DNA from: Streptomyces corallincola
GTDB taxonomy: Bacteria > Actinomycetota > Actinomycetes > Streptomycetales > Streptomycetaceae
Reading direction: 5' to 3'
DNA: 64,000 nt
NCBI RefSeq assembly: GCF_019104725.1
Contig: NZ_JAHRXF010000010.1
Location: forward strand, 1 to 64,000
Every line of letters starts with the position of its first letter. Positions within the stretch are counted from its first letter, which is position 1. Made by a program: the position numbers and the translations under genes. Under the pieces are notes generated by a model that saw only the letters and a list, made by a program, of their open reading frames with translations, was not told where the DNA came from and made no database searches. Below, in pieces: positions 11,848-20,415 of this stretch.

Positions 11848-12732
11848 GTGCCAAAGACGAAAAAGGCGAAGGACGCGAAAGCCGCCAAGGGTGCCAAGGG
11901 CGCCTCGGGTGCCAAAGACGTCAAGTACGACAAGATGTCCGGCAAGGGTGCGGGGCGGGCGGGCGGCGGTGCCCCGGCGGGGGACGAGAAGGGGCTCGAC
12001 TTCCCGCGTGCCTGGGTGGAGTTCCCCGACCCGGCCGACGACGAACAGGTCTTCCGCTGCGACCTGACCTGGCTGACCTCCCGCTGGAGTTGCGTCTTCG
12101 GCAGCGGCTGCCAGGGCATCCAGGCGGGCCGCGCGGACGACGGCTGCTGCACGCTGGGCGCCCACTTCTCCGACGAGGACGACGAGCGCCGGGTCGCGGA
12201 GCACGTGGCCCGGCTCACCCCGGACATCTGGCAGAACCACGCCGAGGGCACCCGGAACGGCTGGGTCTCCGAGGACGAGGAGGGCTCCCGGCAGACCCGG
12301 CCCTTCCAGGGCTCCTGCGTCTTCCAGAACCGGCCCGGTTTCGCGGGCGGCGTGGGCTGCTCGCTGCACATCCTCGCGCTGAAGGAGGGCCGCGAGCCGC
12401 TGGAGACCAAGCCCGACGTCTGCTGGCAGCTCCCGGTCCGGCGCACCTACGACTGGATCGACCGCCCCGACGACACCCGCGTGCTCCAGATCTCCATCGG
12501 TGAGTACGACCGGCGCGGCTGGGGTCCCGGCGGCCACGACCTGCACTGGTGGTGCACCTCCGCCACCTCCGCCCACGGCGCCGGTGACCCGGTCTACGTC
12601 TCCTACCGCCCCGAACTCATCGAGCTGATGGGCAAGGAGGGCTACGACCGCCTGACCGAGCTGTGCGAACAGCGGCTGGCGTCGCAGCTCCCGCTGGTCG
12701 CCCCGCACCCGGCGGACCCGCCGCGGGCGTAG
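11848..12732 (+). CDS. Cys-rich conserved actinobacterial protein, function unknown
   Basis: 294 aa. The first 40 residues are a Lys/Ala/Gly-rich tail ([17 protein letters not shown]) like those of nucleic-acid-binding or flexible basic tails. The body has about a dozen Cys in clusters: [48 protein letters not shown] and CEQR. With several His this looks like a metal (Fe-S or Zn) site, as in DUF3109-like proteins, but I cannot name the family. No signal peptide or membrane helix. The GTG at 11848 is set by a TACCCT hexamer six bases upstream. It converges on the sigma-like fusion gene. Confidence 0.75.
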
Positions 12733-12852: not shown

Positions 12853-14607
12853 CTAACTGCCCGTGGGCGACGGGGTGTCGTCCGGGGGCGGCGGGGACGA
12901 CGGCTCCTCCGGGGTGCTCGGGGGCGGGTCGGTCGGGGTGTCGGTGGGCGGGGTGGTGGGGGTGGTCGGGGGCGGGGACTCGCTGGTCGGCGGGGGTGTG
13001 GACGACTCGGTCGGCGGGGGTGTCGTCGGGTGGGCCGGGGTGCTCGGGACGGGGTGCGGGACGGAGCGGGTGGGGGTCCTGCCGTGGCCGTCGATGGTGA
13101 CGACCGAACCGGCCGGGGCGACGGCGACGCGGGCGCGCCAGTGGCCGGAGGGTTCCCGGAGGTGATCGACACGCACCTTGACCGTCTCGCTGGCGCCCGG
13201 CTCCAGGGTTCCGTGGGAGCGGCTGAGACGGAGCCAGGGCGCCGCGGTGGCCGCCGACCACTCCACCGGGCCGGAACCGGAGGCGCTGAGGGTGATCAGG
13301 GTGGTGTCGCCGTCGCTGACGGCGCCGACCGTGAGGCGGCCCGCGTTCTTCCGGTCGCCGCCGCCCACGGAGACGACCGCCACGGAGACGTCGGAGCGCC
13401 CGGTGCCGTCGCTCGCCGGGGTGCCGGGGCGCGTACCGGCGTTGCCCGCGTTCTGGTAGCCGCCGGTGTCACCGGCGAGGGCGTCGGGGTCGCGCGCCTC
13501 GCTCGCGGTGGGCGGATGGGCCTCGCCCTCCCCCAGCGGCTCGCCCCGGTAGGCGGCCCACAGGGCGAGCACGGGTGCGGCGACGACGGTGGCGACGACG
13601 GTCGTGGTGACGGCCCGCGCCCGCATCCGCTCGCGGCGCGCTGCGCGGTCCTTGGGGTCCATCGGGAAGCCGCGCCGGTCGAACCGGGGCGCGTCGGCGC
13701 CCCGCGGGCGGGCGTGGTGCGCGGGTACGGTGCCGAGCGCCGCGCGGGGTGCTTCGAGCACGGGCAGTTCGGCGGGGGTGACGGTGGCGCCGGGCCAGCG
13801 GCCGGGCACCGCGCGTTCGGCGGTACGGCGGCAGCGCGGGCAGTCGTCCACGTGCCGGACGAGTTCGCGGCGGAGCGCGGCGCTGAGCACCATGCGGCTG
13901 TCGCCGGTGAGGTGGGCGACGGCCGGGCAGCCGCCGGTCTCGACCACGGCGAGGGCGGCGCGGGTGCGTTCGACCTCGCAGGCGGCGGCGGAGAGCAGTT
14001 CGCGGGTGGCGCCGGGTTCCATGCCGAGGACGGCGGCGACCTCGTGCGCGGCGAGCCGGTGGCGGACGGCGAGTTCGAGCGCCTCGCGCTGCTCGGGGGT
14101 GGTGCCGGCCGCCTCCGGCCAGGCGAGCAGGGCGAGTTCGCGGCGCCGTTCCTCCGCCGTCGCGGTGCCCGGGGCCGCCGCGTCCTCGGGGGTGCCGGGG
14201 CCGTCGGGGCCGGTACCGGCCGGGCGTCCGGCCGCGTGGGTGGCCCGGCGTCTCCGCCGGGCCTCGGCGAGGCCGCGCAGACACGCCCAGCGGGCCAGCG
14301 CGTAGAGCCAGGCCCTGTGGTCGGCGGGGTCGCCGGGGGCGCGGTGCGCGCGCCGTTCGGCCAGCCGCAGCACCTCCGCGAGGGCGGTGGTGGCGGCGTC
14401 GTGGTCGCAGAGCACGGACAGGCAGTAGGTGAACAGACCGTCCAGGTACGGCTCGTGGCGGGGGGCCGGGCGACGGGCGACGTTGCGGGCGGCGGCACGG
14501 TCGCGCGACTCGCGTGCGTCGCGTGTCTCGCGCGGGTCGCGGGCCTGGCGCGACGCCCGGTGCGTGCCGCCGGAGCGGGTCGTGGTCTGGGGACTGCTGC
14601 TCATCAC
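12853..14607 (-). CDS. Sigma-like / zinc-finger / BACON-domain membrane fusion protein
   Basis: 584 aa with unusual architecture. Residues about 52-118 look like ECF sigma region 2 (YLDGLFTYCLSVLCDHDAA, then DHRAWLYALARW). Residues about 155-225 look like region 4 (PEQREALELAVRHRLAAHEV, AAVLGMEPGATRELL). A zinc anti-sigma type motif follows: H252, C256, C259 (HVDDCPRC). One helix spans about 333-353. Outside lies a BACON-type domain (about 410-505, EWSAATAAPWLRLSRSHGTL) and a Pro/Thr/Ser-rich tail. It resembles ECF groups with fused anti-sigma and sensor parts (ECF52-like, from memory). The start GTG at 14607, directly before an ATG at 14604, follows TACGGT by seven bases, so it is likely leaderless. 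Confidence 0.82.
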   Translation of the reverse strand: MMSSSPQTTTRSGGTHRASRQARDPRETRDARESRDRAAARNVARRPAPRHEPYLDGLFTYCLSVLCDHDAATTALAEVLRLAERRAHRAPGDPADHRAWLYALARWACLRGLAEARRRRRATHAAGRPAGTGPDGPGTPEDAAAPGTATAEERRRELALLAWPEAAGTTPEQREALELAVRHRLAAHEVAAVLGMEPGATRELLSAAACEVERTRAALAVVETGGCPAVAHLTGDSRMVLSAALRRELVRHVDDCPRCRRTAERAVPGRWPGATVTPAELPVLEAPRAALGTVPAHHARPRGADAPRFDRRGFPMDPKDRAARRERMRARAVTTTVVATVVAAPVLALWAAYRGEPLGEGEAHPPTASEARDPDALAGDTGGYQNAGNAGTRPGTPASDGTGRSDVSVAVVSVGGGDRKNAGRLTVGAVSDGDTTLITLSASGSGPVEWSAATAAPWLRLSRSHGTLEPGASETVKVRVDHLREPSGHWRARVAVAPAGSVVTIDGHGRTPTRSVPHPVPSTPAHPTTPPPTESSTPPPTSESPPPTTPTTPPTDTPTDPPPSTPEEPSSPPPPDDTPSPTGS

Positions 14608-14620: not shown

Positions 14621-14792
14621 GGCCCCTTTCGTGCGGTGGTCGGCGAACCTTGAGTCCTTTTCCTTCGTACGGGTGAAACGATCCCTCGATAGGGGACACG
14701 GGTCGGCCGTACGGTGGCGCGATCCGGGGGTGAAGTGGCCGATACCGGTCGGTTGTGGACGGGAGCGGAACGGCGTTGTCAGTGGCGGGGGC

Positions 14793-14798
14793 TACGGT
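14793..14798 (+). promoter_or_regulatory. -10 box of radA (TACGGT)
   Basis: TACGGT, six-base spacer, then the ATG of radA at 14805. This predicts a leaderless radA message. Confidence 0.5.
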
Positions 14799-14804
14799 TT
14801 CCGC

Positions 14805-16214
14805 ATGGCTGCCCGTACCAAGACCACCAAGGACCGTCCGTCCTACCGCTGCACGGAGTGCGGCTGGCAGACGGCCAAGTGGCTCGGCCGCTGCCCCGAG
14901 TGCCAGGCGTGGGGCACGGTCGAGGAGTACGGCACGCCCGCCGTCCGCACCACGGCGCCCGGCCGGGTCACCTCCTCCGCGCTGCCCATCGGCCAGGTGG
15001 ACGGACGGCAGGCCACCGCCCGCTCCACCGGCGTGCCCGAGCTGGACCGGGTGCTCGGCGGCGGCCTGGTCCCCGGCGCGGTCGTGCTGCTCGCGGGTGA
15101 GCCGGGCGTCGGCAAGTCCACGCTGCTGCTGGACGTGGCGGCCAAGGCGGCGAGCGACGAGCACCGCACGCTGTACGTGACGGGCGAGGAGTCCGCGAGC
15201 CAGGTGAGGCTGCGCGCCGACCGCATCGGCGCCCTCGCCGACGACCTGTATCTGGCGGCCGAGACCGATCTCTCCGCCGTGCTGGGCCACTTGGACGCGG
15301 TGAAGCCGTCCCTGCTGGTCCTGGACTCGGTGCAGACGGTGGCCTCCCCGGAGATCGACGGCGCCCCCGGCGGCATGGCCCAGGTCCGGGAGGTGGCGGG
15401 CGCGCTGATCCGCGCCTCCAAGGACCGCGGGATGTCCACCCTGCTGGTCGGCCACGTCACCAAGGACGGCGCCATCGCGGGCCCCCGGCTGCTGGAGCAT
15501 CTGGTGGACGTGGTGCTGCACTTCGAGGGCGACCGGCACGCCCGGCTCCGCCTGGTGCGCGGGGTGAAGAACCGGTACGGCGCGACGGACGAGGTCGGCT
15601 GCTTCGAGTTGCACGACGAGGGCATCACCGGGCTCACCGACCCCAGCGGCCTGTTCCTGACCCGCCGGGACGAACCCGTGCCGGGCACCTGTCTGACCGT
15701 CACCCTGGAGGGCCGCCGCCCGCTGGTGGCCGAGGTGCAGGCGCTCACCGTGGACTCCCAGATCCCCTCCCCGCGCCGGACCACCTCCGGGCTGGAGACC
15801 TCGCGGGTGTCGATGATGCTGGCGGTGCTGGAGCAGCGCGGCCGGATCAGCGCGCTCGGCAAGCGGGACATCTACTCCGCGACGGTGGGCGGGGTGAAGC
15901 TGTCCGAACCGGCCGCCGACCTCGCCATCGCGCTGGCCCTCGCCTCGGCCGCGAGCGACACCCCGCTGCCGAAGAACCTCGTGGCGATCGGTGAGGTGGG
16001 CCTCGCGGGCGAGGTGAGACGCGTCACCGGGGTGCAGCGGCGGCTGGCGGAGGCGGCCCGGCTCGGCTTCACGCACGCGCTCGTACCCGGCGATCCGGGC
16101 AAGGTCCCGGCCGGTATGAAGGTGCTGGAAGTGGCCGACATGGGGGACGCGCTGCGGGTCCTGCCGCGCGCACCTCGCCGGGAGGCCCCACGGGAGGCGG
16201 AGGACCGCCGGTAG
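14805..16214 (+). CDS. radA: DNA repair protein RadA
   Basis: 469 aa, normal. An N-terminal C4 zinc finger (C16, C19, C30, C33: CTEC and CPEC) is followed by a RecA-like ATPase with Walker A GEPGVGKST and Walker B LLVLDS, then the RadA-specific KNRYG motif (KNRFG in most), then a Lon-protease-like C-terminal domain (AEVQALTVDSQIPSPRR and AIGEVGLAGEVRRV). RadA is a helicase/branch-migration factor in recombination. The neighbouring disA fits known physical and genetic links of RadA with the c-di-AMP synthase. The start ATG at 14805 is set by the TACGGT box. Confidence 0.97.
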   Translation: MAARTKTTKDRPSYRCTECGWQTAKWLGRCPECQAWGTVEEYGTPAVRTTAPGRVTSSALPIGQVDGRQATARSTGVPELDRVLGGGLVPGAVVLLAGEPGVGKSTLLLDVAAKAASDEHRTLYVTGEESASQVRLRADRIGALADDLYLAAETDLSAVLGHLDAVKPSLLVLDSVQTVASPEIDGAPGGMAQVREVAGALIRASKDRGMSTLLVGHVTKDGAIAGPRLLEHLVDVVLHFEGDRHARLRLVRGVKNRYGATDEVGCFELHDEGITGLTDPSGLFLTRRDEPVPGTCLTVTLEGRRPLVAEVQALTVDSQIPSPRRTTSGLETSRVSMMLAVLEQRGRISALGKRDIYSATVGGVKLSEPAADLAIALALASAASDTPLPKNLVAIGEVGLAGEVRRVTGVQRRLAEAARLGFTHALVPGDPGKVPAGMKVLEVADMGDALRVLPRAPRREAPREAEDRR

Positions 16215-16294: not shown

Positions 16295-17419
16295 GTGGCA
16301 GCCAACGAGCGGGCGGCAGCTCCCGGAAAGTCCGGTGGGAGCACCGGTGCCGATGCCCGGATGCGCGCCTCCCTGAGCGCCGTCGCTCCGGGTACGCCGC
16401 TGCGGGACGGCCTGGAGCGGATTCTGCGCGGCAACACCGGCGGCCTGATCGTGCTGGGTTCCGACCGGACGGTCGAGGCCATGTGCACCGGCGGGTTCGT
16501 GCTGGACGTGGAGTTCGCCGCGACCCGGCTGCGCGAACTGTGCAAGCTCGACGGCGGGATCGTGCTCTCCTCCGACCTGTCGAAGATCCTGCGCGCGGGC
16601 GTGCAGCTGGTGCCGGACCCGACGATCCCCACCGAGGAGACCGGCACCCGGCACCGCACCGCCGACCGCGTCTCCAAGCAGGTCGGTTTCCCCGTGGTCT
16701 CCGTCTCCCAGTCGATGCGGCTCATCGCGCTCTACGTGGACGGGCAGCGACGCGTGCTGGAGGACTCGGCGGCGATCCTCTCCCGGGCCAACCAGGCGCT
16801 GGCCACGCTGGAGCGGTACAAACTCCGGCTCGACGAGGTCGCGGGCACGCTGTCCGCGCTGGAGATCGAGGACCTCGTCACCGTCCGGGACGTGTCCGCC
16901 GTCGCCCAGCGTCTGGAGATGGTCCGGCGCATCGCCGCCGAGATCGCGGAGTACGTGGTCGAACTCGGTACCGACGGGCGGCTGTTGTCCCTCCAGCTGG
17001 AGGAACTCATCGCGGGTGTCGAGCCCGACCGCTCCCTCGTCGTCCGGGACTACGTCCCCGAGCCCACCGCCAAGCGGTCCCGCACGGTGGAGGAGGCGTT
17101 GTCCGAGCTGGACGCGCTGAGTCACGGGGAGCTGCTCGAACTCGGCACGGTGGCGCGGGCGCTGGGCTACACCGGGTCGCCCGAGACCCTCGACTCCGCG
17201 GTGTCGCCCCGCGGGTTCCGGTTGCTGGCGAAGGTGCCCCGGCTTCCCGGTGCCGTCATCGACCGGCTTGTCGAGCACTTCGGGGGGTTGCAGAAGTTGC
17301 TCGCGGCCAGCGTCGATGATCTTCAGGCTGTGGATGGGGTGGGCGAGGCGCGTGCGCGCAGCGTCCGCGAGGGGCTCTCGCGTCTGGCGGAGTCCTCCAT
17401 CCTGGAACGGTACGTGTAG
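16295..17419 (+). CDS. disA: Diadenylate cyclase DisA (c-di-AMP synthase)
   Basis: 374 aa. The DAC domain occupies about residues 30-150, with the two active-site motifs DGGIVLS (DGA motif) and GTRHRTADR (RHR motif). A helical linker and a C-terminal helix-hairpin-helix DNA-binding domain follow ([20 protein letters not shown]). It makes c-di-AMP from two ATP and, in Bacillus, scans DNA for branched structures; in Streptomyces c-di-AMP affects development and osmotic balance. The GTG start has a GGAGGAG site six bases upstream. It is probably co-transcribed with radA. Confidence 0.96.
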
Positions 17420-17651: not shown

Positions 17652-18479
17652 CTAGTCGGCGGCCAGGACGAAGGACGTCTGCTGTTTGCCGTACGTGCCC
17701 GCGTCCAGTTCCAGGAGGTAGGTGCCGGGAGGGGCCTTCTTGGGGGACTTGGTCGGGCAGGTCTTGGTGCTGGAGTCGCGGTCCCAGGAGGTGGTGTAGG
17801 TGATGGACCGGCCGGAGGGGACGCGGAAGGAGAGGGAGGAGGGGCCCTTGGGGCAGTCGGCGGAGGACCAGAAGGTGTCGTCGTCGGCGGTGACGACCGT
17901 GAGCACCGCCCGCTTGGGGCCGAGGTCGATCGCGCAGTCCCCGGAACCCGAGTTCTTGACGGTGATCCTGAACCGGGGCTTCTGGTCGGGCGAGTAGGAG
18001 TTCCGCTCGCTGCTCAGCGTCAGCGACACCTTGCCGGAGGCGCAGTCGGCGAGGGACGAGGAGGCGGGCAGCGTGTCACCGGACCCCACAGCCGTACCGG
18101 CACCGCCACCGGAACCGGCGCTCGTACCCGTACCCGTACCGGAGTTGGAGCCGGAGCCCGAACCGCCGTTCCCCGCACCGGAGTCCGCGCCGCCCGAGCC
18201 ACCGGAGCCGCCCGAGCCGCCGGAACCCCCGCCCGACTCGTCGCGCCCGCCGGGGTGTTGGCTGATCGCGGAGCCCGAGGGAGTGGGACCCGGTGTGATC
18301 GTGGAGGCGGGATTCTTGCCGTCGGCGCCGTCGTGCGGCTTCTTGCCCGCGCCGCCGCCGGAGACCACGATCCAGGCGATCAGCAGCGCCAACACGGCCA
18401 GCACGGACACGATGACGACCCTCCGACGCCAGTAGATGGAGGAGGGAAGCGGCCCGACCGGATTGCGCAGAGATCCCAC
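17652..18479 (-). CDS. Membrane-anchored Gly/Ser-rich extracellular protein
   Basis: 275 aa. A short basic N-terminus (SSIYWRRR) precedes one helix (about 21-40, VVIVSVLAVLALLIAWIVVS). A long Gly/Ser-rich linker with GGSGGSGGS-type repeats follows, then a C-terminal beta-sandwich-like domain (about 150-275; SLTLSSERNSYSPDQKPRF, ITVKNSGSGDCAIDLG) with four Cys that may form disulfides. This is the pattern of Streptomyces hypothetical surface proteins; partner and function unknown. The GTG at 18479 lies seven bases after TAAGGT, so it is likely leaderless. Confidence 0.75.
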   Translation of the reverse strand: MGSLRNPVGPLPSSIYWRRRVVIVSVLAVLALLIAWIVVSGGGAGKKPHDGADGKNPASTITPGPTPSGSAISQHPGGRDESGGGSGGSGGSGGSGGADSGAGNGGSGSGSNSGTGTGTSAGSGGGAGTAVGSGDTLPASSSLADCASGKVSLTLSSERNSYSPDQKPRFRITVKNSGSGDCAIDLGPKRAVLTVVTADDDTFWSSADCPKGPSSLSFRVPSGRSITYTTSWDRDSSTKTCPTKSPKKAPPGTYLLELDAGTYGKQQTSFVLAAD

Positions 18480-18486
18480 GGCGCAA

Positions 18487-18492
18487 ACCTTA
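18487..18492 (-). promoter_or_regulatory. -10 box of the Gly-rich surface protein gene (TAAGGT)
   Basis: TAAGGT on the minus strand, seven bases before the GTG at 18479. Confidence 0.5.
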
Positions 18493-18669
18493 CGAGAGAT
18501 CGTCGCGCCGACTCGCGTCACATGCCGCCCCGGCGACAACTTTTCCGGATCATCATCACGGCAACTGCCGCCAGCGGAGCGCATGTTCACACTCCGACAC
18601 GGCCCGCGACGCTCCGCGACCGTGCGGACGCCCGCCAACACCGCCCGGCCGTGGCAGGATCGGAAGGCC

Positions 18670-19545
18670 ATGACTGAGACCCTTCACGACCCCGTGATCG
18701 ACTGGTTCGACAGCAACGCCCGCGACCTCCCCTGGCGCCGCCCGGAGGCGGGGCCCTGGGGCGTGATGGTCAGCGAGTTCATGCTCCAGCAGACCCCGGT
18801 CAGCCGCGTCCTGCCCGTGTACGAGCAGTGGCTCGCCCGCTGGCCGCGCCCGGCGGACCTCGCCGCCGAGGCACCCGGCGAGGCGGTGCGCGCCTGGGGA
18901 CGGCTCGGCTACCCGCGCCGCGCGCTGCGCCTGCACGGCGCGGCCGTCGCCATAACGGAACGGCACGGCGGCGACGTACCCACCGACCACGCCCAGCTCC
19001 TCGCGCTGCCCGGCATCGGGGAGTACACGGCGGCGGCCGTCGCGTCCTTCGCGTACGGGCAGCGGCACCCGGTGCTGGACACCAACGTGCGCCGGGTGTT
19101 CGCCCGTGCGGTGACCGGTGTGCGGTACCCCCCGAACGCCACCACCGCGGCCGAGCGGCGTCTCGCCCGCGAGCTGCTCCCCGAGGACGAGGGGACGGCC
19201 GCGCGCTGGGCCGCGGCCTCGATGGAGCTGGGCGCGCTGGTGTGCACGGCGAAGAACGAGAGCTGCCACCGCTGCCCGATCGCCGCGCTGTGCGCGTGGC
19301 GGCTCGCGGGCAAGCCGGAGCACGACGGACCGCCGCGCCGGGGCCAGACGTACGCCGGGACCGACCGTCAGGTGCGCGGCAAGCTGCTCGCCGTCCTGCG
19401 CGACGCGCACGTACCGGTGCCGCAGTCGGCGCTGGACCGGGTGTGGCACGAGCCGGTGCAGCGGGCCCGCGCGCTGGACGGGCTGGTCGGCGACGGCCTG
19501 GTCGAACCGCTGCCGGGCGGGCTGTACCGCCTCCCCGTGGGCTGA
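18670..19545 (+). CDS. mutY: A/G-specific adenine glycosylase
   Basis: 291 aa. Removes adenine mispaired with 8-oxoguanine. MutY features: FMLQQTPVSRVLPVY, the helix-hairpin-helix LPGIGEYTAAAVASFAYGQ with catalytic Asp in VLDTNVRRVF, and a C-x6-C-x2-C-x5-C iron-sulfur site (CTAKNESCHRCPIAALC). The C-terminal domain that reads 8-oxoG is short compared with the 350-aa E. coli enzyme, as in other actinobacterial MutY. The ATG at 18670 follows GGAAGG. It is divergent from the surface protein gene. Confidence 0.94.
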   Translation: MTETLHDPVIDWFDSNARDLPWRRPEAGPWGVMVSEFMLQQTPVSRVLPVYEQWLARWPRPADLAAEAPGEAVRAWGRLGYPRRALRLHGAAVAITERHGGDVPTDHAQLLALPGIGEYTAAAVASFAYGQRHPVLDTNVRRVFARAVTGVRYPPNATTAAERRLARELLPEDEGTAARWAAASMELGALVCTAKNESCHRCPIAALCAWRLAGKPEHDGPPRRGQTYAGTDRQVRGKLLAVLRDAHVPVPQSALDRVWHEPVQRARALDGLVGDGLVEPLPGGLYRLPVG

Positions 19546-19869
19546 CCCGCCGTCCCGGCCCGCCGAACCCCGGTGGACGCGCCCGCCCCGGTGGGATGAC
19601 ACGGCGTCAGGCCCCATGTCATGGGCGGCTGTCACCCGCACCGCCCGGCAAATGTCCCCGTAACCGGACACAACCACCGCCGCCTTACCCCGTACCTACA
19701 TCCGTTACACAACCGACGGACAGCCGAGGGGCGTCCGCCGTCTGCCGCGCACCACCCCGTGACAAGCGGTCCGTAGCTTCAGTCCTCGTGCCGGGCAGAC
19801 CACCGGGACGGCAGGACATCGGCAGGGCGGCCCGGAGCCGTGGTGCGCGGGGATGCGGAGGCGGTTGAC
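19546..19869. promoter_or_regulatory. sigE upstream region
   Basis: 324 bp with no gene. It must carry the sigE promoter, which in S. coelicolor is activated by phosphorylated CseB. I see a direct repeat ACACAACC at 19668-19675 and 19707-19714 that could be an OmpR-type site, and a TAGCTT near 19766 that could be a -10. An imperfect dyad (ATGACACGGCGTCA at about 19597, ATGTCAT at about 19617) may be the end of mutY transcription. None of this is proven. Confidence 0.4.
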
Positions 19870-20415
19870 ATGGAGCAGCAGGGCGGCGAGGTGCTCGCGT
19901 TCGAGGAGTACGTGCGGACCCGGCAGGACGCGCTGCTGCGCAGTGCCCGCCGGCTGGTGCCGGACCCCGTGGACGCGCAGGACCTGCTCCAGACCGCGCT
20001 GGTGCGCACGTACGGCCGCTGGGAGGGCATCGCGGACAAGCGGCTCGCGGACGCCTATCTGCGCCGGGTCATGATCAACACCCGGACGGAGTGGTGGCGG
20101 GCCCGCAAGCTGGAGGAGATCCCCACCGAGCAGCTGCCCGACGCATGCGTGGACGACGCCGCCGAGCAGCACGCGGACCGCGCCCTGCTGATGGACGTCA
20201 TGAAGGTACTGGCGCCCAAGCAGCGCAGTGTCGTGGTGCTGCGACACTGGGAGCAGATGTCCACGGAGGAGACGGCAGCCGCCCTCGGCATGTCCGCGGG
20301 CACGGTCAAGAGCACGCTGCACCGGGCGCTGGCCCGGCTCCGTGAGGAGCTGGAGGCGCGCGAGAGGGACGCACGCGCGCTGGAGCATGAGGAGCGGGAG
20401 CGTTGCGCGGCCTGA
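19870..20415 (+). CDS. sigE: ECF RNA polymerase sigma factor SigE
   Basis: 181 aa, SigE of the Streptomyces cell-envelope stress response. Region 2 is FEEYVRTRQDALLRSARRL, VDAQDLLQTALVRTYGRW; region 4 is LAPKQRSVVVLRHWEQMS, STEETAAALGMSAGTVKSTL. It directs transcription of cell-wall genes when the envelope is damaged. There is no anti-sigma gene: activity is set by transcription through CseB/CseC, with CseA as a negative modulator. I used the ATG at 19870; a GTG six codons on (19888, GEVLAFEEY region) matches the shorter S. coelicolor form. The 3' end overlaps cseA by 13 bases. Confidence 0.96.
   Translation: MEQQGGEVLAFEEYVRTRQDALLRSARRLVPDPVDAQDLLQTALVRTYGRWEGIADKRLADAYLRRVMINTRTEWWRARKLEEIPTEQLPDACVDDAAEQHADRALLMDVMKVLAPKQRSVVVLRHWEQMSTEETAAALGMSAGTVKSTLHRALARLREELEARERDARALEHEERERCAA

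Follow-up and report, generated by a model that had tools for sequence, protein, structure and literature searches.

Does the gene at positions 12853 to 14607 on the minus strand of the window, a 64,000-nucleotide stretch of the Streptomyces corallincola genome, encode a working sigma factor? The sigma part of its product is highly conserved, yet it has lost residues on which gene activation by sigma factors ordinarily depends, and the protein may therefore signal in some other way. The open reading frame runs from 14607 to 12853 without internal stops, starts with a GTG directly followed by an ATG, and encodes 584 amino acids. At least 501 stretches of our genome collection encode a relative, and 119 of the 121 Streptomycetaceae genomes sampled gave a match; together with dN/dS values well below 1 in every measured part, these numbers place the reading frame beyond chance. 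The 17 genera of the family were all represented, and across the class 64 of 394 genomes contained a match. From the collection, 80 loci were kept, 79 of which contained the reading frame; 70 of these were complete and were aligned with the window protein (71 sequences, 65 of which make up alignment A3). An artefact or a pseudogene was ruled out by the 70 complete orthologues and by dN/dS below 1.

The protein begins with a tail of 51 residues, followed by a sigma region-2-like domain (residues 52 to 124; 14236 to 14454, minus strand like all parts of the gene), a variable linker, a sigma region-4-like domain (residues 158 to 222; 13942 to 14136) and a zinc anti-sigma (ZAS) domain (residues 223 to 265; 13813 to 13941). 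Residues 1 to 17 of the tail (MMSSSP-x-TTxRT-x-GAHRA) are well kept in Streptomyces and lie outside all domains found. The ZAS domain has the class I feature Hx3Cx2C with an upstream ligand. H252, C256 and C259 stand where the original prediction had placed them, and C227, which had gone unmentioned, supplies the fourth ligand. This set (C-x24-H-x3-C-x2-C) is invariant in 71/71 aligned Streptomyces-type sequences and, at positions that carry letters, in each of the 119 Streptomycetaceae rows; the zf-HC2 model scored below its Pfam cut-off on the window protein (14.6 bits versus 22.2; E 0.037). A juxtamembrane motif, FDRRGFP (residues 309 to 315; 13663 to 13683), lies ahead of the single membrane helix (residues 333 to 353; 13549 to 13611), which falls within a helix spanning residues 318 to 354 in the AlphaFold2 (AF2) model. 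Beyond a linker modeled at low confidence follows an extracytoplasmic BACON/Ig-like domain (residues 408 to 509; 13081 to 13386), for which BACON_2 scored 25.7 bits against a Pfam cut-off of 25 (E 1.1e-5, residues 426 to 483) and matched at E of at most 1 in 71/71 members of alignment A2 (best E 3.7e-10). The modeled BACON part resembled an accessory domain of a GH115 protein (4zmh_B; VIA-align Z 10.5, 94 residues, 2.6 Å), and a search of PDB sequences by the family profile also returned 4zmh for this part (E 1.2e-5), along with chance-like ETV6 fusions. The predicted Pro/Thr tail exists as a variable Pro/Thr/Ser-rich stretch (residues 513 to 584; 12856 to 13071), but it follows the BACON domain and ends in the free C terminus, and so does not sit between the membrane and BACON.

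Across the 70 orthologues and the window protein, mean column conservation was 98% in the membrane helix, 95% in the sigma4-like domain, 90% in the sigma2-like domain, 89% in the ZAS domain, 80% in the BACON region and 62% in the tail. Median pairwise dN/dS, calculated from 2480 pairs with 0.15 < dS < 0.8 (2477 for the membrane helix), was 0.028 in the membrane helix, 0.107 in the sigma4-like domain, 0.11 in the juxtamembrane part, 0.22 in the sigma2-like domain, 0.243 in the ZAS domain and 0.42 in BACON. Constraint is thus tightest on the sigma4-like, juxtamembrane and membrane parts, and purifying selection on the protein is strong. The pattern [FYW]x3G[FWRYL]P occurs between ZAS and membrane in 80/80 Streptomyces sequences, 39/39 from other genera of the family, both radA-linked relatives from other families (loci L120 and L130) and 15/29 distant relatives, and arises by chance in 1.1% of shuffles; it was absent from both an NPCBM fusion (L160) and a CAP fusion (L161) of the same genome. 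The membrane helix of the window protein carries AAP-x-x-A-LW, and the corresponding signature AP-x-x-[AVLI]-LW was found in 79/80 Streptomyces sequences, 29/39 from other Streptomycetaceae genera and 0/31 outside the family.

The sigma2-sigma4 fold is predicted to be retained, with region 4 the weaker match. AF2 gave a first model of 471 residues (pLDDT 70.9, pTM 0.36) and a second, of the cytoplasmic part, of 224 residues (pLDDT 75.6, pTM 0.57). Residues 45 to 124 take the ECF region-2 fold, and the top VIA-align rows were ECF sigma chains with Z 9 to 10 over about 72 to 75 residues at 2 to 3 Å; for helical folds a Z below about 13 can reflect a common arrangement, and here the sigma chains rank above the unrelated rows. 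For region 4, 3hug_G reached Z 6.8 and 2h27_D Z 5.5, and an evidently unrelated chain first turned up in the same list at Z 5.9. Foldseek returned 6dv9_F at 3.8e-4 for the longer model and no match at E of at most 0.001 for the cytoplasmic model, for which 6dv9_F was again the best (4.5e-3). With the family profile, the PDB sequence search yielded a single response regulator for the sigma part (E 0.13). SigK from an anti-sigma complex (4nqw_A) aligned with the model across both domains (118 residues, 6.5 Å), versus 23.6 to 27.7 Å for the RNA polymerase (RNAP)-complex chains spanning both sigma domains, which hints at a closed, anti-sigma-bound-like arrangement at a model confidence too low to lean on. 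The sigma region 2- and 4-like parts of the original prediction are thus borne out by the fold, less firmly for region 4.

Family models recognized the sigma part poorly. In a Pfam scan at E up to 10, neither Sigma70_r2 nor Sigma70_r4 matched the window protein, so that an ECF assignment by region-2 and region-4 models above cut-off fails; the only sigma-related match was PhyR_sigma-like (E 0.24), also found at E of at most 1 in 52/71 members of A2. In the HMM search that the original prediction had proposed, BACON_2 passed, with zf-HC2 below its cut-off and Sigma70_r2 and Sigma70_r4 unmatched. The NCBIfam model PRK12513 matched residues 56 to 197 at E 1.5e-5 (24.8 bits; cut-off 206), and weakly (E of at most 1) 70/71 family members; TIGR02937 likewise fell short (12 versus 42.9 bits). 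Sigma70_r4_2 appeared in 32/71 members of A2 (best E 0.0024), and Sigma70_r2 was not among the best 25 of the 31 families listed for A2. Searching the genome in all six frames gave 44 Sigma70_r2 matches, of which the one in the window, at 19912 to 20109, belongs to SigE and not to the gene at 12853 to 14607. By comparison, L120 and L130 pass the Pfam cut-offs for both sigma regions, as does another relative, L125, and L127, L129 and L136 pass Sigma70_r2. Other proteins argue against a simple reading of Pfam scores: L160 and L161 pass region 2 and fail region 4, L121 passes region 2 though it lacks the region-2.2 Asp, and L123 passes region 4 and fails region 2.

We therefore compared individual residues among 80 Streptomyces sequences, 39 from other Streptomycetaceae genera, L120 and L130, 29 fusions that are more distantly related, and 15 ECF sigma factors encoded in the same genome. 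The last set comes from 22 sigma sequences taken from among the 44 Sigma70_r2 matches, less seven judged by eye to be group 3, and is biased toward canonical sequences because it was picked through Sigma70_r2. The counts are of sequences, not of independent events; the 80 Streptomyces rows include a duplicate (L063 and L148 come from a single contig) and one locus labeled Kitasatospora (L079). The region-2.2 Asp was present in 0/80 Streptomyces and 1/39 other-genus sequences, versus 2/2 for L120 and L130, 8/29 distant relatives and 15/15 ECFs of the genome, and the region-2.2 Gln in 0/80, 0/39, 1/2, 2/29 and 13/15, respectively. Within the family the core-binding motif is thus reduced to one Asp and no Gln among 119 sequences, with an acidic residue after the Asp position in 107 (79/80 and 28/39; 2/2, 27/29 and 12/15 in the other sets). 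Since this acidic neighbor is retained, binding to core RNAP is doubtful rather than disproved.

Equivalences to Mycobacterium tuberculosis sigma H residues were assigned manually, guided by motifs and by the positions that PMC6411747 names. As described there, alanine at R186 or S182 of sigma H causes a substantial loss and alanine at N88 causes transcription defects, and sigma A and ECFs have conserved residues in common where they contact the beta-prime coiled coil (PMC6411747). Asn at the N88 equivalent was found in 0/80 Streptomyces sequences (all 80 have Trp), 0/39 from other genera, 2/2 for L120 and L130, 2/29 distant relatives and 11/15 ECFs of the genome. The position is not strict: Arg occupies it in 4/15 ECFs of the genome and His in 11/39 other-genus sequences, and sigma C and sigma D of M. 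tuberculosis have His there (PMC6411747); with Asn, Arg or His allowed, the counts become 0/80, 11/39, 2/2, 6/29 and 15/15. Arg or Lys at the R186 equivalent occurred in 0/80, 13/39, 2/2, 15/29 and 10/14, and Ser at the S182 equivalent in 0/80, 5/39, 0/2, 0/29 and 8/14; the latter position does not separate L120 and L130 from the family, because they too lack the Ser. Mean net charge over residues 198 to 210, the −35 recognition helix, was −0.09 in Streptomyces and −0.10 in the other genera, versus +2 for L120 and L130, +0.59 for the distant relatives and +2.64 for the ECFs of the genome. The Trp equivalent to sigma H W81 was retained in 80/80 and 39/39. Misalignment was considered as the source of the missing residues; L120 aligns with the window protein gaplessly between conserved anchors in both regions, so that a register error is unlikely. 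Four cysteines of the sigma-like module (C62, C67, C109 and C210) are present in 80/80 Streptomyces rows; C62 and C109 also occur in 39/39 other-genus rows, in 18/29 and 23/29 distant relatives, and in 0/15 and 2/15 ECFs of the genome.

The original prediction had taken the protein for a self-contained surface-to-transcription switch, to be abandoned if the N terminus had no sigma fold or lacked residues needed for core RNAP binding. The fold is kept and, as judged by sequence, part of those residues is missing, which leaves the claim of a working sigma factor unsupported. We favor, with a probability of roughly 0.58, a fused ECF sigma-ZAS membrane protein whose sigma2-sigma4 module would no longer be a promoter-recognizing initiation factor and would have been kept as a protein-binding pseudo-sigma. 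Its computed support comprises the architecture, the fold, the full set of zinc ligands, purifying selection, and the absence of RNAP- and DNA-contact signatures, which other families have kept in their relatives at this locus. A divergent but working self-inhibited ECF, held at the membrane by ZAS and freed by a surface signal through proteolysis or conformational change to serve RNAP at unusual promoters, appears unlikely; this is how ECF52 has been proposed to work and how the original prediction saw the protein. The predicted fold, the acidic region-2.2 residue and the retained Trp speak for it; against it stand the loss of the Asp, the Gln and the recognition-helix charge relative to intact-looking relatives at the same locus, and Pfam sigma matches that end at PhyR_sigma-like. 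Class I anti-sigma domains bind at regions 2.1/2.2 and at −35-contact residues, overlapping the RNAP- and DNA-contact sites (PMC7406223). Because of this overlap, the changes in the sigma module may instead reflect altered binding in cis to ZAS.

The original prediction rightly compared the protein with ECF52, an actinobacterial group in which SCO4117 of S. coelicolor combines sigma, zinc finger, transmembrane segment, Pro-rich region and carbohydrate-binding module in one protein (PMC5826349, PMC8999054). The plan of sigma, zinc finger, membrane segment, Pro-rich part and surface module is common to both; it also favors a working sigma factor, given that truncation work on ECF52 supports the idea that its sigma part is active once released (PMC5826349, PMC8999054). 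However, the surface module is NPCBM in ECF52 and BACON in the window protein, and the Pro-rich part precedes the module in ECF52 and follows BACON at the C terminus here. Membership in ECF52 was ruled out, as NPCBM was unmatched in the Pfam scan of the window protein. The same genome has an apparent ECF52 orthologue in L160 (NPCBM at E 3.5e-26), which, unlike the window protein, keeps the region-2.2 Asp, passes Sigma70_r2 and lacks the FDxxGFP motif. ECF53 and ECF48 are also described as sigma factors fused C-terminally to a zinc finger and transmembrane segment (PMC8999054).

A probable counterpart of the BACON fusion has already been noticed as a sigma gene, in that Table 3 of a 2024 paper on S. 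venezuelae lists RS15920 with the domains "r4, BACON" and no r2 (PMC11256431). From its domains and gene order, RS15920 is the probable orthologue of the window gene: an ECF gene sits six tags further on, ahead of a 254-amino-acid gene and a two-component system, an arrangement like that of sigE-cse in the window (PMC11256431). That this probable orthologue is counted among sigma genes weighs toward a working sigma factor. The table also contains "r2, CAP" and "r2, r4, NPCBM" genes (PMC11256431), and the three S. venezuelae fusions look like counterparts of the window gene, L161 and L160. L161 (2303 to 4153, plus strand) is a fusion of sigma, Hx3Cx2C and membrane helix whose surface domain is CAP (SCP/PR-1; PF00188, E 2.5e-24), and its counterpart is probably RS02075, the "r2, CAP" gene (PMC11256431). 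The ECF gene six tags from the BACON gene, RS15950, with its 254-amino-acid and two-component neighbors fits SigE-CseABC; the paper itself sees no resemblance to sigma E in any of the three ECFs it studied (PMC11256431). Expression of RS15920 was raised in three ECF deletion mutants, that of RS15950 and two others (PMC11256431). Our literature searches returned no functional study of RS15920, and the accessible text of PMC11256431 discusses neither its function nor its degeneracy.

The family is closely tied to radA, which was present at 79/80 collection loci, 39/39 other-genus loci and 9/9 divergent Streptomyces loci (one contig being counted twice), versus 1/29 distant-relative loci; disA was present at 79/80 collection loci. 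We also surveyed 60 radA-upstream stretches, some of them shortened by contig ends, from 143 non-Streptomyces genomes with radA. Besides L120 and L130, which had been found by profile, only two of the 60 stretches outside Streptomycetaceae contained a related gene, and thus the link to radA is not general; one of the two (L248) is from the same genus as L130, and the other (L252) covers the sigma4-ZAS part only. In a FastTree tree, the Streptomycetaceae formed one clade at a support of 0.905, and a node with support 1.0 united it with L120, L127, L139, L136, L129, L125 and L130, all seven of which have the region-2.2 Asp. The simplest reading of these sequences is that the sigma module decayed along the lineage leading to Streptomycetaceae and that other lineages independently lost some of the same features; a loss further back, followed by regain, is less likely. 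The timing rests on one tree, since other distant lineages (21/29) also lack the region-2.2 Asp.

In the window, radA (14805 to 16214, plus strand; TIGR00416, E 9.2e-153) is the divergent neighbor and locus marker, followed on the same strand by disA, for diadenylate cyclase (16295 to 17419; NF010009, E 1.3e-158). A MutY-like protein among the neighbors scored below its equivalog cut-off. On the other side lie a conserved Cys-rich protein (12067 to 12732, plus strand) and a gene of the Ppx/GppA family. Among ten neighboring reading frames, those at 12067 to 12732 and 17652 to 18671 had no model matches in NCBIfam or Pfam at the limits used. The Cys-rich protein lies near radA in 39/60 radA-upstream stretches of other actinobacteria and is thus a widely conserved radA neighbor. 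None of the neighbors named by models is a separate sigma or anti-sigma partner gene adjoining the fusion, in agreement with the original prediction. In an alternative built on this locus, the sigma4-like helix-turn-helix would be a membrane-bound DNA-binding or scaffold module, the sigma2-like part structural, and the role local (the radA-disA locus, c-di-AMP or wall synthesis), with no RNAP or sigma partners. The tighter constraint on the sigma4-like than on the sigma2-like domain, the close radA-disA link within the family and the "r4, BACON" annotation, the only domains recognized in the S. venezuelae table (PMC11256431), fit this alternative, but the near-zero net charge of the recognition helix and the limited reach of the radA link make it improbable.

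Under the preferred pseudo-sigma reading, a single-pass membrane protein would descend from a fused ECF sigma/ZAS anti-sigma protein whose sigma2-sigma4 module ceased promoter-recognizing initiation on the branch to Streptomycetaceae. The pseudo-sigma would pack against its own ZAS in the cytoplasm, and BACON would read the state of the envelope or wall; the FDxxGFP segment and the almost invariant membrane helix could relay a change, by conformational change or intramembrane proteolysis. The output would be altered binding by the pseudo-sigma or ZAS, most simply to another ECF sigma factor or its regulator. This would be sigma mimicry, as PhyR does to NepR: the sigma-like domain of PhyR binds the anti-sigma factor NepR, so that in both cases a sigma fold would serve protein binding, and PhyR chains are among the fold matches of the AF2 model (Z 6 to 7). 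PhyR differs in being a response regulator with a receiver domain, which the full-length Pfam scan did not find in the window protein. A more specific version, a partner switch within one membrane protein, has the pseudo-sigma occupying ZAS in cis until an envelope signal read by BACON frees one of the two, ZAS or the pseudo-sigma, for action in trans on a genuine ECF such as SigE; we regard it as speculative and rather unlikely. SigE, fifth gene on from the fusion (19840 to 20415, plus strand; TIGR02983 over cut-off) and followed by frames over cut-off for the CseB and CseC models, is a candidate partner by position alone. SigE is not known to have a dedicated anti-sigma factor.

Membrane proteins that fuse a sigma factor to an anti-sigma domain have been described before but have received little study. 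If the preferred reading holds, a sigma factor would have been repurposed family-wide as a signaling or mimic module in Gram-positive bacteria, which would caution against counting every Streptomyces sigma-like reading frame as a sigma factor. For mutation, the FDxxGFP segment and the almost invariant membrane helix offer direct handles, and the radA-linked relatives with intact-looking sigma domains a ready comparison.

At 14776 to 14805, TTGTCAGTG-N8-TACGGT ends six bases 5′ of the radA ATG; we take it to resemble the PafBC/RecA-NDp DNA-damage promoter of actinobacteria, and it would presumably make radA leaderless. In 71 aligned Streptomyces upstream regions, an intergenic block at 14666 to 14697 (CGTACGGGTGAAACGATCCCTC...GGGGAC) is largely conserved, with many columns at 90% or above. 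Immediately 5′ of the start of the fusion gene, CCTACGGTC is conserved too, and the gene may therefore also be leaderless.
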